This document shows, piece by piece, positions 6,218 through 45,056 of a DNA stretch of 64,000 nt (positions are counted from its first letter, which is position 1; the number at the start of each line of letters is the position of its first letter). Under the pieces are notes generated by a model. That model saw only the letters and a list, made by a program, of their open reading frames with translations, searched no databases and was not told the DNA's origin. The translations under genes were made by a program, and so were the position numbers. Source of the stretch: an uncultured Propionibacteriaceae bacterium (GTDB lineage Bacteria > Actinomycetota > Actinomycetes > Propionibacteriales > Propionibacteriaceae); NCBI GenBank assembly GCA_945911015.1, contig CAMDZW010000012.1:1-64000 (forward strand), read 5' to 3'.

Positions 6218-7132
6218 ATGACTGAGTCCACACCCACCGACTCACCCGAACCGGACGGTTCGGGGGTGTCGTCGACGGCTGAGGCTCCCTCGTACGGACG
6301 TGCTGGTCGAGACCTGCCCGCTGCGATCGGCGTCGGAGTCGGCCTCGGTGCGGTTGTCGTGCTCACCCTCACCTTCCTGCACTGGGGCTTCGTCGTCCTG
6401 GTCGCAGTCGGGCTCTGCCTGGGCGCGGTCGAACTCCACCAGGCGTTGGGTCGGTTGGGGATCGGTACCGCCGTGCTCCCCATCTGTGTCGGCACCGCGG
6501 TGATGGTCTGCGCCTCCTATTGGGCGGCGCTGCACCCCGACCGGGTGATGCCAGCCAGTACGGTGATGGTGGTCGTGTTGGCGCTGACCGTGATTGCCTC
6601 GTTGGTGTGGCGGATGCGGTCGGGCCCGGACGGGTTCGTCCGTGATGCCAGCGGCAGTCTGTTCATCATCTGCTACATCGGCCTGCTCGGCTCCTTCGTG
6701 CCGCTGATGTTGGCCGGTGACCAGGGCGTGGGCCGGGTTGTGGTGTTCATCGCTGCGGTTGTCTTTTCCGACATCGGTGGCTATGTGGCCGGGGTGTTGT
6801 TCGGCCGGCATCCGATGGCGCCGGTGATCAGCCCGAAGAAGTCGTGGGAAGGGTTCATCGGCTCGATCGTGTTCTCCGTCGCGATGGCCACTGTGCTGTG
6901 TGTCCTGGTGCTGGACGTCCAGTTCTGGATCGGGATCGTCCTGGGTCTGGTGATGGTCGCGGTCGGCACCTGCGGCGACCTGATCGAGTCCTTGGTCAAA
7001 CGGGATGTCGGGATCAAGGACATGAGCTCGTTCATCCCCGGCCACGGTGGTGTGATGGACCGGATCGACTCTCTGTTGCTCGCCGCACCAGCCGCTTGGC
7101 TGGTCATGTACCTGCTCATCCCCGGAGGCTGA
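6218..7132 (+). CDS. cdsA: Phosphatidate cytidylyltransferase
   Basis: Makes CDP-diacylglycerol from phosphatidic acid and CTP in the membrane. 304 aa: a polar, Ser/Pro-rich N-terminus of about 30 residues, then about eight membrane helices, with the family signature near the C-terminus ([19 protein letters not shown], then [11 protein letters not shown]). The ATG is immediately after the frr stop. CDP-diacylglycerol is also the donor for many CDP-alcohol phosphotransferases, a family with a member at 46600-47409. Confidence 0.96.
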
Positions 7133-7134
7133 GA

Positions 7135-8289
7135 ATGACTGAACGTCCCCCGCTCGTCGAACCGGGCAAGCAGCTCCCGTTGGTCTTCGAAGCCCCGCGC
7201 CGGGGCAAGCCGCCGACCCATTGGGCCGACCTCGACGCCGATGGCCGGATCGATGCGATCAACCGGGCGGGTCTGCCGAGGTTCCGGGCCAAGCAGCTGT
7301 CCACCCAGTTCTTCGTACGGCATGAGCACGACCCCCAGCGCTGGACCGATCTGCCGGCCGCGCTGCGCGACGAGCTCGGTGAGCAGTTCTTCCCGCCGCT
7401 GCTGAATCGGGTCCGCGACCTCGACTGCGACGACGGTGACACCGTCAAGACCCTGTGGAAGCTCCATGATGGGGCGTTGGTCGAGAGCGTGTTGATGACC
7501 TACCCGAACCGGAGCACCATGTGTGTCTCCTCGCAGGCCGGTTGCGGTATGGCCTGCCCGTTCTGTGCGACCGGTCAGGGTGGTCTGCAGCGCAACATGA
7601 GCACTGCCGAGATCTTGTGCCAGGTCGCTGACGGGATGCGACGCCGGGCGGCCGACGATCGCCGGATCAACAATGTGGTCTTCATGGGCATGGGCGAGCC
7701 GCTGGCCAACTACAAGGCCGTGATCGGTGCCGTACGGGCGATGGTCGCGCCTGCGCCCGATGGTTTCGGGATGAGTGCTCGCGGCATCACGGTGTCCACG
7801 GTCGGCCTGGTGCCGGCCATCAAGAAGCTCACCGAGGAAGCCATCCCGGTCACTCTGGCCCTGTCGCTGCACGCCCCCGACGACGAACTGCGCGACGAGC
7901 TGGTGCCGATCAACACCCGGTTCAAGGTCGACGAGGCGATCGACGCGGCGTGGGAGTACGCCAAGGTCACCAAGCGGCGGGTCTCGATCGAGTACGCCCT
8001 GATCAAGGACATCAACGATCACGCGTTCCGGGCCGATCTACTCGCCACCAAGCTGAAGAAGCGCGGCGACTGGGGTTGGGTGCACGTCAACCTGATCCCG
8101 CTCAACCCGACGCCGGGCTCGATCTGGACCGCGTCGCGCCGTGAGGATGAGGCCGAGTTCGTACGGAGGCTGGAGGCCCACGGGGTGCCGGTCACGGTCC
8201 GCGACACCCGTGGTCGTGAGATCGAGGGGGCCTGCGGTCAGCTGGCGGCGACCGAGGAAGAGCTTGCCGCGGCCGCTCTGCCGTCGTGA
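7135..8289 (+). CDS. rlmN: Dual-specificity 23S rRNA/tRNA methyltransferase RlmN
   Basis: Radical-SAM enzyme that methylates C2 of A2503 in 23S rRNA and A37 in tRNAs. 384 aa from ATG 7135, 2 nt after the cdsA stop with GGAGG inside the cdsA end. The 4Fe-4S motif is CGMACPFC; the [10 protein letters not shown] segment follows; the methyl-carrying Cys lies near the end in EIEGACGQL. In most relatives dxr follows soon after, but here an accessory block of about 14 kb begins. Confidence 0.96.
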
Positions 8290-41042: not shown

Positions 41043-41489
41043 ATGCCATCACCACGCCTGCTGAAGCTTGCTGAGCAGATCAAGAACATCACCGCCCAGA
41101 TGCTGGAGCGGCGGATCAAGGATCCTCGGTTGGGTTTTGTCACCCTGACCGATGTCCGGCTGACCGGTGACAGTCGTGAGGCAACGCTGTTCTACACCGT
41201 GTTGGGCGACGAGGCCGCCCGCGCCAGCACCCAGGCGGCTTTGCAGTCGGCGACCGGGGTGATCCGGTCCCAGATCGGCAAACAGCTCGGACTGCGCTAC
41301 ACCCCGTCGCTGACTTTCATCCTGGATGCGGTCCCGGAGAACGCCCAGCACATCGAGGACCTGCTGGCCAAGGCCCGCCTCGGTGACGCTGCGCTCATCG
41401 ACCAGGCCACCGGCGCCACCTATGCCGGTGACCCGGACCCGTACAAGAAGAAGCCCGACGATGACCCGGCACAGGAACCGGATGAGTGA
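41043..41489 (+). CDS. rbfA: Ribosome-binding factor A
   Basis: Late 30S maturation factor, 148 aa with a single KH-like domain. PRLLKLAEQIKNITAQML at the start and RRIKDPRLGFVTLTDVRLTGD are typical, with FILDAVPENAQHIEDLL near the end; the last 25 residues are an acidic/polar tail. ATG 41043 follows GAGGGAGGG. The truB gene overlaps its last 8 bases. The DHH phosphoesterase (nrnA) that commonly follows rbfA is missing. Confidence 0.95.
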   Translation: MPSPRLLKLAEQIKNITAQMLERRIKDPRLGFVTLTDVRLTGDSREATLFYTVLGDEAARASTQAALQSATGVIRSQIGKQLGLRYTPSLTFILDAVPENAQHIEDLLAKARLGDAALIDQATGATYAGDPDPYKKKPDDDPAQEPDE

Positions 41490-42357
41490 CGGCTCAGGCG
41501 TGGTCGTGGTCGACAAGGCGCCCGGCGTGACCAGTCATCAGGTCGTCGGGCGGCTGCGTCGGCTGCTCGGCACCCGCAAGATCGGCCACGCCGGGACCCT
41601 TGACCCGATGGCGACCGGAGTGCTGGTCTGCGGGGTCAACCGGGCCACCCGGCTGCTCGGGCACCTGATGCTCGGCACCAAATCCTACCGGGCCACCATC
41701 CGGCTCGGCGCAAGCACCGTCACCGATGACGCCGAGGGGGACATCGTCGCCTCACCTGGTGCTGCCGGCATCAGCCCGGACCGGGTTGCGGCGCTGCTGC
41801 CCCGGTTCACCGGCGACATCGAGCAGGTCCCCACCCAGGTCTCGGCGATCAAGATCGACGGGGTCCGTTCCCATGCCCGGGTCCGGGCCGGTGAGGAGGT
41901 CGACCTACCGGCCCGTCCGGTCACCGTGCACCGCTTCGACCTGCTCGACAGCCGGATCGAGGGCGACTTTCTCGACCTGGAGGTTGAGGTCGACTGCAGC
42001 CCAGGCACCTACATCCGTGCGTTGGCCCGCGACATGGGCCGTGAGCTCGGCTGCGGCGGACACCTCACCCGGCTGCGCCGTACCGCTGTGGGTCCGTACG
42101 GGATCGACCGGGCAGTGCGGATCGACACCGATGAACCCGTGGTAAACCTGATCAGCATCGACGACGTGGCCCGGGAGAACTTCCCGGCCGTCCAGCTGGA
42201 GCCGGACCGGGCCGGACCGGTCCGTCACGGTGGACGGGTGGCGGCCGAGTTGCTCGCCCCCGCCGGCTCGACCGCTCTGTTCGAAGGTGACGAATTCCTC
42301 GCGCTGCACCGCGCCGACGGGAAGGTCGAGGCCGTGTTCTGTTCGGGACGACAGTGA
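41482..42357 (+). CDS. truB: tRNA pseudouridine(55) synthase
   Basis: Makes pseudouridine 55 in the T-loop of tRNAs. 291 aa. The catalytic Asp is in KIGHAGTLDPMATGVL; YRATIRLGASTVTDDAEG, the VSAIKIDG motif and SPGTYIRALARDMG follow. ATG 41482 overlaps rbfA, so translation is coupled. The C-terminal 70 residues correspond to the actinobacterial TruB_C domain. Confidence 0.95.
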   Translation: MSDGSGVVVVDKAPGVTSHQVVGRLRRLLGTRKIGHAGTLDPMATGVLVCGVNRATRLLGHLMLGTKSYRATIRLGASTVTDDAEGDIVASPGAAGISPDRVAALLPRFTGDIEQVPTQVSAIKIDGVRSHARVRAGEEVDLPARPVTVHRFDLLDSRIEGDFLDLEVEVDCSPGTYIRALARDMGRELGCGGHLTRLRRTAVGPYGIDRAVRIDTDEPVVNLISIDDVARENFPAVQLEPDRAGPVRHGGRVAAELLAPAGSTALFEGDEFLALHRADGKVEAVFCSGRQ

Positions 42358-42358
42358 C

Positions 42359-43222
42359 ATGGGCATGACCATCCCCGACCTGCCCGAGCGGGCGCCGATC
42401 TGGCAACGCGGCGCCCACCGGTTGGTCTTCCATCCGGCCACCCAGACCGTGATCGTCACGGCGATCGTGCTGAACGGGATCGTCCTGGGCCTGCAGACCT
42501 TCGACGAGTTCAGCCCCGGCACGTACCACATGCTGAACCTGATCGACCGGAGCTTCCTGGCCTTCTTCGTCATCGAGATCGCGCTGCGTTTCATTGCCGA
42601 GGGCTGTCGTCCGGTCAAGTACTTCCGCAATGGATGGAACACCTTCGACACCGTGGTGATCCTGCTCGCGGTGCTGCCGTTCATCGCTGCGAATGCCTCG
42701 GTGCTGCGGATGATCCGGGTGCTGCGGATTGCCCGTTTGGCCCGAGTGATGCCTGATGTGGCTGTCCTGCTCGACGGGCTGCGCCGGGTCGCCAAGCCGG
42801 CGGCCAGTCTGATGGCGCTCACCGCGCTGATGGTCTTCCTGTACGGGATGGTGGGCACCTTCCTCTTCGGGGACACGGTCCCGCAGCGCTTCGGCAACAT
42901 CGCCAATTCGATGCTCCCCCTGTTCGAACTGCTCACCCTCGAAGGGTGGAACGACACCCTGCACGAACTGCTCGACGCCCACGGCTGGCTCGGTGGGGCC
43001 TACACGATCTCCTTCGTGCTGATCGGCACCTATGTCGTGATCAACCTGATGGTTGGTGTGGTCATCTCCGGTCTTGACGAGGCCCACAAGGAAAGGATCC
43101 GCACCCGGCCCGACCAGCACCACGAACTGCAGAGCACCGTCGACGAGATGAACGAACTGGTCGAACGGTTGCAGCGCAATGTCGCCGAGCTCGAGCGCGA
43201 CCGTCCCCGGCGTCACCGGTGA
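42359..43222 (+). CDS. Single-domain voltage-gated cation channel, calcium-type filter
   Basis: 287-aa member of the NaChBac-like six-helix channel family, expected to form tetramers in the membrane. S1-S4 cover residues 28-130; S4 has five Arg at three-residue spacing (117, 120, 123, 126, 129) in VLRMIRVLRIARLARV. The pore loop between S5 and S6 has LTLEGWND (T193-D199). Bacterial sodium channels have TLESW here; EGW followed by an Asp matches calcium-preferring homologues such as CavMr. The last 40 residues form heptads (LQSTVDEMNELVERLQRNV), the tetramerising coiled coil of this family. ATG 42359 is 1 nt after the truB stop, so it is in the translation-factor operon. Confidence 0.9.
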   Translation: MGMTIPDLPERAPIWQRGAHRLVFHPATQTVIVTAIVLNGIVLGLQTFDEFSPGTYHMLNLIDRSFLAFFVIEIALRFIAEGCRPVKYFRNGWNTFDTVVILLAVLPFIAANASVLRMIRVLRIARLARVMPDVAVLLDGLRRVAKPAASLMALTALMVFLYGMVGTFLFGDTVPQRFGNIANSMLPLFELLTLEGWNDTLHELLDAHGWLGGAYTISFVLIGTYVVINLMVGVVISGLDEAHKERIRTRPDQHHELQSTVDEMNELVERLQRNVAELERDRPRRHR

Positions 43223-43233
43223 TCGGGCAGCGG

Positions 43234-43239
43234 TAGAAT
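43234..43239 (+). promoter_or_regulatory. -10 box of leaderless ribF transcript
   Basis: TAGAAT, 7 nt before GTG 43247. The alternative ATG at 43238 overlaps this box. Confidence 0.55.
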
Positions 43240-43246
43240 GCGGCGA

Positions 43247-44149
43247 GTGCCAGACCAGCCACCCACCTCTGCCAACCGCGTCGTGATCATCGGCAACTTC
43301 GATGGCGTCCACATCGGCCACCAGGCGGTCATCGCCGAGGCCGGCCATCACGGCCAGGTGGTCGCGGTCACCTTCCGGCCTCACCCGTTGCGCGTGCTGC
43401 GTCCCGCGGTGGCCCCTCGACTGATCAGCACCGACGCCCAGCGGCGTGAACTGCTGCTGGCTGCCGGGGTGAGCGAGGTCGTCGAGGTGGAGTTCACCTC
43501 GGAGGTCTCCCAGTGGAGCCCGGCAGAGTTCGTCGAGAAGGTGTTGGTCCCGCTGCAGCCGGCCCGGATCGTGGTCGGGCAGAACTTCCGCTTCGGACAT
43601 CGCGCCGCCGGCGATCCCACGTTGCTGGCCGAGCTGGGCCAAGGCCGGTTCGAGGTCGAGGAACTGCCGTTGCGTCAAGGGGTGTCGTCCTCGCTGGTGC
43701 GCGAAGCCCTCACCCGCGGTGACATCGAGACCGCCAATCGTGCCCTGGGACATCCGTTCTGCTATCGCGAGACCGTCGTGGTCGGCCACCAGCGGGGCAG
43801 GGAACTCGGCTTCCCGACCGCCAACCTGCCAGTCGGTGCCGAACGGATCGCCCCGGCCGACGGGATCTACGCCGGGTGGCTCACCCGCGTCGACACCCCG
43901 GACGAACGACTCCCGGCCGCGATCTCGGTGGGGACCAATCCGACCTTCGACGATGTCGCAGCCACCGTCGTCGAGGCCCATGCCCTGGACCGCACCGATC
44001 TGGAGCTGTACGGGGTCGAGGTGATGGTCGAGTTCGTGGCCCGGCTGCGCGGCAATGACAAGTTCGACGGCATCGACGCCCTGATGGTGCAGATCGGCAA
44101 GGACTGTGATGCCGCCCGGGCCTGGCTCAGCCAGCCGGACGCAGACTGA
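43247..44149 (+). CDS. ribF: Bifunctional riboflavin kinase/FAD synthetase
   Basis: Makes FMN from riboflavin and then FAD. 300 aa. N-terminal nucleotidyltransferase domain with VVIIGNFDGVHIGHQ and SSLVREAL; C-terminal riboflavin-kinase domain with GRELGFPTANLPVG. GTG 43247 is preferred over ATG 43238 because a TAGAAT box sits 7 nt before the GTG and includes the AT of the ATG; the extra residues MRR carry no signal. Its 3' end overlaps the PfkB gene by 23 bp, tail to tail. Confidence 0.95.
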   Translation: MPDQPPTSANRVVIIGNFDGVHIGHQAVIAEAGHHGQVVAVTFRPHPLRVLRPAVAPRLISTDAQRRELLLAAGVSEVVEVEFTSEVSQWSPAEFVEKVLVPLQPARIVVGQNFRFGHRAAGDPTLLAELGQGRFEVEELPLRQGVSSSLVREALTRGDIETANRALGHPFCYRETVVVGHQRGRELGFPTANLPVGAERIAPADGIYAGWLTRVDTPDERLPAAISVGTNPTFDDVAATVVEAHALDRTDLELYGVEVMVEFVARLRGNDKFDGIDALMVQIGKDCDAARAWLSQPDAD

Positions 44150-45056
44150 CCCGTGCGGCCAGCTTCTCGGCAACCCGGGCCTCGAACCGGCCCGCACCGG
44201 GGACCAAGGCATTGGCCGTACCGCAGGCCATCGCCCACCGCAGGCCATCAGCGAGTGAGTCGCCACGATCGAGGCCGGTGAGCAGACCGCCCAGGAATGA
44301 GTCCCCACTGCCGACCGGGAACGTGCCGCGCACCTGGGCCAGCTCTGCCCGTACCAGGTCGTGGCCGTCGAAGCCGACCGCACCGTCGGCACCGTCGGTC
44401 AGCACGACCAGGCCATCGGTGACTGCGGCCAGTGAACGGGCCATTGCGCCCAGATCACCGGACGGATCGATACCGAGCTCGGCCGATGCCTCGGCCCGGT
44501 TCACCTTCACCAGCGCAGGCTTCTCAGCCAGAGCTGCGGTGAGGGTCCGCCCGGAGCTGTCGACCGCGACCCGCACCCCGTGCCGGTGACCCAGCCGGAC
44601 CACCTCGGCCAGCGCATCGTCAGGCAGGTTCCGGGGCATCGAACCACTGGTGGACAACCATCCCGGACGGTCGGCGAGCAGTTCACCGGTGCGGGCGACC
44701 AGCCTCTGCCAGATCTCGGGGTCGGTGGTCGGGGCATGTTCGTAGATCTCGGTCAGGCTGCCGGTCGCGGTGGAGGAGACCGACACGCAGGTGCGGGTCT
44801 CCTGTGGGCTCGACACCGCAGCAGTCCGTACGCCTTCGGCCTCCAGTTCGGTGACGATCCAGTCGCCACTGGCGCCACCGACCACGGTGGTCAGAGCCAC
44901 ATCGGCGCCCATCCGTCGGGCGGCACGTGCCATGTTGAGGGCCTTCCCACCGGCGCAGCGGGCCACCGTGGTGGGGCGATGGATCTCGCCGAGACGGTAG
45001 TCGTCCACCTGGTAGGTGATGTCGATCGAAGGGCTCGGTCCCAGTACGGTCAGCAC
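44127..45056 (-). CDS. PfkB-family hexose kinase (FruK/LacC-like)
   Basis: 309 aa. PfkB signature 1 is [12 protein letters not shown] near residue 35 and signature 2 is [14 protein letters not shown] near 250, with the catalytic Asp in GSGDS. GSGD rather than GAGD and the short lid fit the 1-phosphofructokinase/tagatose-6-phosphate kinase branch. No PTS gene is nearby, so the substrate cannot be fixed. It starts at GTG 45056, 6 nt after TAGGCT (45063-45068 on the minus strand), a leaderless arrangement. Divergent from rpsO. Confidence 0.87.

Follow-up and report, generated by a model that had tools for sequence, protein, structure and literature searches.

A single-domain voltage-gated channel gene with a TLEGWND selectivity filter between truB and ribF in a Propionibacteriaceae genome, a candidate prokaryotic calcium channel

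The window analysed, a stretch of 64,000 nt from an uncultured Propionibacteriaceae bacterium (contig CAMDZW010000012.1), contains the genes infB, rbfA, truB, a channel gene and ribF in this order, followed by a pfkB-family kinase gene on the opposite strand and then by rpsO. The channel ORF begins with ATG and, as an earlier note on this DNA had described, occupies positions 42359-43222, leaving a gap of 1 nt to the truB stop codon (42355-42357); its own stop is separated by 15 nt from the ribF start. The kinase gene (44127-45056, minus strand), located between ribF and rpsO, is convergent with ribF, the ends of the two genes overlapping over 23 nt. The features relevant here are the following:

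41043..41489, + strand: rbfA, context gene (Pfam RBFA, E 1.7e-30)
41482..42357, + strand: truB, context gene upstream of the channel gene (Pfam TruB_N, E 1.5e-47)
42359..43222, + strand: voltage-gated cation channel gene, 287 aa, TLEGWND filter (ORF; Pfam Ion_trans, PF00520, E 7.9e-44; AlphaFold2 pLDDT 91.4; dN/dS 0.34)
42695..42745, + strand: S4 voltage sensor, residues 113-129, with Arg117, Arg120, Arg123, Arg126 and Arg129, the first four of them invariant in the TLEGWN alignment
42935..42955, + strand: selectivity filter 193-TLEGWND-199, read from the sequence (TLEGWN invariant and position 7 variable in the clade)
42986..43105, + strand: S6 pore-lining helix, residues 210-249 (AlphaFold2 helix), with the conserved Asn229, invariant in 45 channels
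43109..43201, + strand: C-terminal heptad helix (coiled coil), residues 251-281 (a/d spacing 257-278; AlphaFold2 helix)
43238..44149, + strand: ribF, context gene downstream of the channel gene (Pfam FAD_syn and Flavokinase)

The channel ORF is not a chance reading frame, since it combines the Ion_trans match (E 7.9e-44) with an orthologue (74% identity) at the corresponding locus of a congener, Candidatus Avipropionibacterium avicola (DVLP01000314.1), and a dN/dS of about 0.34 between the two. In the same comparison the values for truB, ribF and rbfA were 0.27, 0.28 and 0.17. The channel gene is thus under purifying selection and is not a relic. Its patchy distribution (any related channel was matched in only 14 of 148 family genomes) and an in-frame TGA near the start of the gene in one related lineage could point to a decayed or non-functional channel. 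However, the window copy is intact, its dN/dS indicates constraint, the key residues of S4, S2-S3 and S6 are kept and the fold is predicted with confidence, which makes decay exceedingly unlikely. The TGA was seen about 18 codons past an upstream ATG in the channel frame of Propionibacterium sp. AS27yjCOA_218 and of the genomes G040 and G106 (genus g18), where the frame either has a later start or is broken.

An AlphaFold2 monomer model, built from an alignment of 45 channel sequences, had a mean pLDDT of 91.4 and contained a complete voltage sensor and a complete pore, plus a C-terminal helix. With the segment names assigned to the predicted helices in the present analysis, the voltage sensor comprises S1 (26-46), S2 (53-80), S3 (92-105) and S4 (113-124 and 127-130), and the pore comprises S4-S5/S5 (132-170), P1 (181-192), P2 (197-208) and S6 (210-249); the C-terminal helix spans residues 251-281. 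This arrangement of a six-helix voltage sensor and pore, with an Arg at every third residue of S4, is that of the BacNav superfamily (PF00520). The five regularly spaced S4 arginines and the C-terminal coiled coil that the earlier note had pointed out were both confirmed: the predicted core positions of the latter (257, 261, 264, 268, 271, 275 and 278) follow a perfect 4-3-4-3-4-3 spacing within the AlphaFold2 helix, a pattern that would agree with a homotetramer. Residues I36, N39, E73, F96, P107, R117, R120, R126 and N229 were invariant across the 45 channels, which means that the residues for charge transfer and those of S6 have been retained. Both S4 and S6 are intact, contrary to the loss of function that the earlier note had named as a possible refutation. 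When the model was compared with the PDB using Foldseek, NavMs was the best match (5e-12), followed by CavAb and NavAb. By sequence, the top matches among the 60 PDB entries listed were Cav3 T-type calcium channels (3.1e-71 when their repeats are summed); a CavMr entry was absent from these best 60.

The order truB-channel-ribF was found in five Propionibacteriaceae species, namely the two congeners, genome G071, Microlunatus speluncae and Microlunatus parietis. Relative to the truB stop, the channel start lies at +1 in the window, at -4 in the congener (an ATGA overlap) and, depending on the start codon chosen, at about +26 in G071, +7 in M. speluncae and +10 in M. parietis. This recurrence, together with the 4 nt start/stop overlap in the congener, might be taken to indicate a functional tie of the channel to tRNA modification, flavin synthesis or ribosome function, a proposal compatible with any ion selectivity. 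However, other TLEGWN orthologues sit elsewhere in their genomes. Further, in relatives lacking the channel, truB and ribF are usually adjacent (the gap between matches being 48-178 nt in most) or have unrelated genes between them, namely MarC, DUF308, an ABC transporter pair, an FGGY kinase with a HAD hydrolase, a sorbitol PTS, or a methyltransferase with a LuxR regulator. A functional tie is therefore very unlikely. The truB-ribF junction is a variable site in Propionibacteriaceae, where the channel is one cargo among several. The unexpected partnership with truB that the earlier note had highlighted is thus uninformative, the neighbourhood says little about function, and a link between the channel and translation is not supported. 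What the position between truB and ribF does suggest is that the channel gene is probably co-transcribed with the housekeeping operon. A sigma-70 scan for a promoter belonging to the channel gene found none, which is also what chance alone would give. As to whether the channel arrived at truB-ribF by a single insertion, the tree needs two linkage changes, and the alternative with all linked genes in one clade was not rejected (p-AU 0.34).

Orthologues with the TLEGWN filter were identified in the two congeners, M. speluncae, M. parietis, G071, Propioniferax innocua, Tessaracoccus rhinocerotis, G072 and Propionibacterium MAGs. The scan of genome contigs, which yielded eight loci, used strict motifs, so the range of the clade may be wider. 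In a tree of 68 sequences, built without NavAb, NaChBac, CavMr and NavPp, the nine TLEGWN sequences from Propionibacteriaceae that it included were monophyletic with support of 100/100. They also stood apart from a 29-sequence actinobacterial clade whose filters lack the Trp. The latter clade of voltage-gated channels (support 100/97) has filters such as TLENFP, TLENLP, TLDGLG and TLETLP, from which selectivity is not obvious. A TLEGWNE channel from Sumerlaeota was considered as a possible relative; a common origin was weakly rejected (p-AU 0.02, on a long branch), and its placement elsewhere in the tree suggests that the resemblance is convergent. Origin from a mobile element was likewise discarded, plasmid protein matches being at most about 33% identical and the one weak phage match 26% identical; no similar DNA was found in plasmids, and thus there was no sign of recent transfer. 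Other filter types were also seen. The genome that contains the window encodes a second voltage-gated channel (C8:96126-96848; 7061-7894 on the minus strand in its locus) with an aberrant filter, LIGDGWAV, one residue shorter in the alignment; the same is seen in the congener. Another family of the same order has many channels with the filter TGDDWAN, and others in the order have TGEAWPD.

The pore sequence TLEGWND (residues 193-199) had been contrasted in the earlier note with the TLESW of sodium channels, a distinction that both the sequence and the tree bear out. Alignment of the filters of actinobacterial homologues showed TLEGWN to be constant in the Propionibacteriaceae clade, while position 7 was Asp, Ser, Gln or Glu, and Met in no member. 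Position 4 is occupied not by the Ser that defines the canonical BacNav filter but by Gly, as in the native prokaryotic Cav group (CavMr-like, AnclNav). All clade members have Asn at position 6, instead of the non-polar Val needed for full CavMr selectivity. The extended L6 loop bearing a disulfide, a trait described for CavMr (PMC10120453) and not necessarily a mark of the group, is absent: the sole Cys of the channel, C83, lies outside the pore and the pore loops contain none.

These residues can be compared with published mutants. According to PMC7041947, CavMr of Meiothermus ruber, with the filter 183-TLEGWVD-189, has a PCa/PNa of 218, which became 11.9 in mutant G4S, 7.7 in G4D, 40 in V6T and 144 in D7M. 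The V6T change, which lowered Ca2+ selectivity about five-fold, also abolished the exclusion of K+ (PK/PNa 0.69). In NavPp, D4G raised PCa/PNa from 0.31 to 41, while T6V gave 1.7. The values indicate that what counts is Gly4 and the identity of position 6, not Asp7. The calcium-type filter proposed in the earlier note is therefore upheld as regards Gly4, a Ca2+ determinant in CavMr, while Asp7 lends it little: as a Ca2+ signature this residue fails, being replaced by Ser, Gln or Glu in orthologues and dispensable in CavMr-D7M.

Gly4 is not sufficient for Ca2+ selectivity, because NavAb S178G, whose filter becomes TLEGW, keeps a PCa/PNa below 0.01 (PMC12919392). The window channel might then be a sodium (or Li+/Na+) channel, its scaffold being one in which the TLEGW core imposes no Ca2+ selectivity, and NavMs and NavAb are indeed among its nearest folds. 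However, position 7 in NavAb is Met181, which PMC12919392 describes as helping to sort monovalent from divalent ions and which no clade member has. In addition, grouping of the TLEGWN sequences with the TLESW channels of the phylum was rejected in the tree lacking NavAb and NaChBac (p-AU 0.005). A sodium channel is for these reasons improbable.

The main rival to Ca2+ preference is a cation channel with weak selectivity or none, in which Gly4 widens the entrance and the polar Asn6, together with a short NavAb-like turret, lets Ca2+, Na+ and K+ pass. The behaviour of CavMr-V6T and NavPp-T6V is in line with this, as are the presence of Asn6 throughout the clade, the free variation at position 7 and the NavAb M181A mutants, reported in PMC12919392 as non-selective with an approximately 10-fold preference for Ca2+. 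Nevertheless, in one-domain channels a Gly after the acidic filter residue goes with Ca2+ selectivity, and the native one-domain channels listed with Gly at that position are described as Ca2+-selective (PMC10120453). We consider a non-selective channel rather unlikely, if clearly less so than a sodium channel.

By analogy with these characterized channels, Ca2+ selectivity of the window channel is likely, and the protein would probably form a homotetrameric, depolarization-activated cation channel that prefers Ca2+ over Na+ by a factor of tens. Four copies would assemble, assisted by the C-terminal coiled coil, and depolarization would move the five S4 arginines, opening the S6 gate. A ring of four Glu195 residues would bind the ion, and Gly196 just above, in place of the Ser of sodium channels, would leave a wide filter entrance that may admit Ca2+ as in CavMr. 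Since position 6 is a polar Asn and not Val, a moderate PCa/PNa would be expected, in the tens as opposed to the value of about 200 of CavMr; CavMr-V6T and NavPp-D4G, both around 40, serve as the analogues. The presumed physiological role would be Ca2+ entry upon depolarization. Counting against a Ca2+ preference are Asn6, the lack of a disulfide-bearing L6 loop and the fact that the nearest solved folds are sodium channels, although the fold does not report selectivity.

A single-domain voltage-gated channel with Gly at filter position 4 is of a kind already known from CavMr, and members of the TLEGWN clade may already be present in the tree of the CavMr paper. Within the literature under open licences, no report was found of a family-wide TLEGWN filter in short-turret channels whose position 7 varies freely. 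PMC12919392 (2026) still terms CavMr the only native prokaryotic Ca2+ channel identified, and the window channel is a good candidate for a second one. It is quite possible, though we propose it tentatively, that the whole clade constitutes a lineage of its own, the second one, of voltage-gated Ca2+ channels native to prokaryotes. Their minimal pore with its short turret would achieve selectivity through Gly4 in combination with the polar Asn6, position 7 being free to be Asp, Ser, Gln or Glu. The clade is a good test case more than a surprise. It provides a natural set of channels with a constant TLEGWN and differing residues at position 7, and several of these come from strains in culture (such as Microlunatus parietis DSM 22083 and Propioniferax innocua DSM 8251). 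With this set one can probe why TLEGW confers Ca2+ selectivity in CavMr and not in NavAb, and it offers a way into voltage-driven Ca2+ entry in actinobacteria.

Among known systems, the closest is CavMr, assigned to the ancestor-like BacNav group (AnclNav; PMC7041947), which shares with the window channel a single-domain voltage-gated architecture, the TLEGW core, Gly4 and Asp7. The two differ in that the window channel has Asn6 instead of Val, belongs to a clade in which position 7 is not conserved, and has pore loops devoid of Cys, in contrast to the disulfide-bearing L6 extension of CavMr (PMC10120453). The canonical bacterial sodium channels NavAb, NavMs and NaChBac, with TLESW filters, have the overall fold, the S4 pattern and the C-terminal coiled coil in common with it, but carry Ser where it has Gly at filter position 4. 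Finally, the domain I filter of the eukaryotic Cav3 T-type channels, TLEGWVD, closely resembles TLEGWND, and these channels were its top PDB sequence matches; Cav3, however, is a four-domain protein whose other repeats have different filters, whereas the window channel would use its single filter four times.
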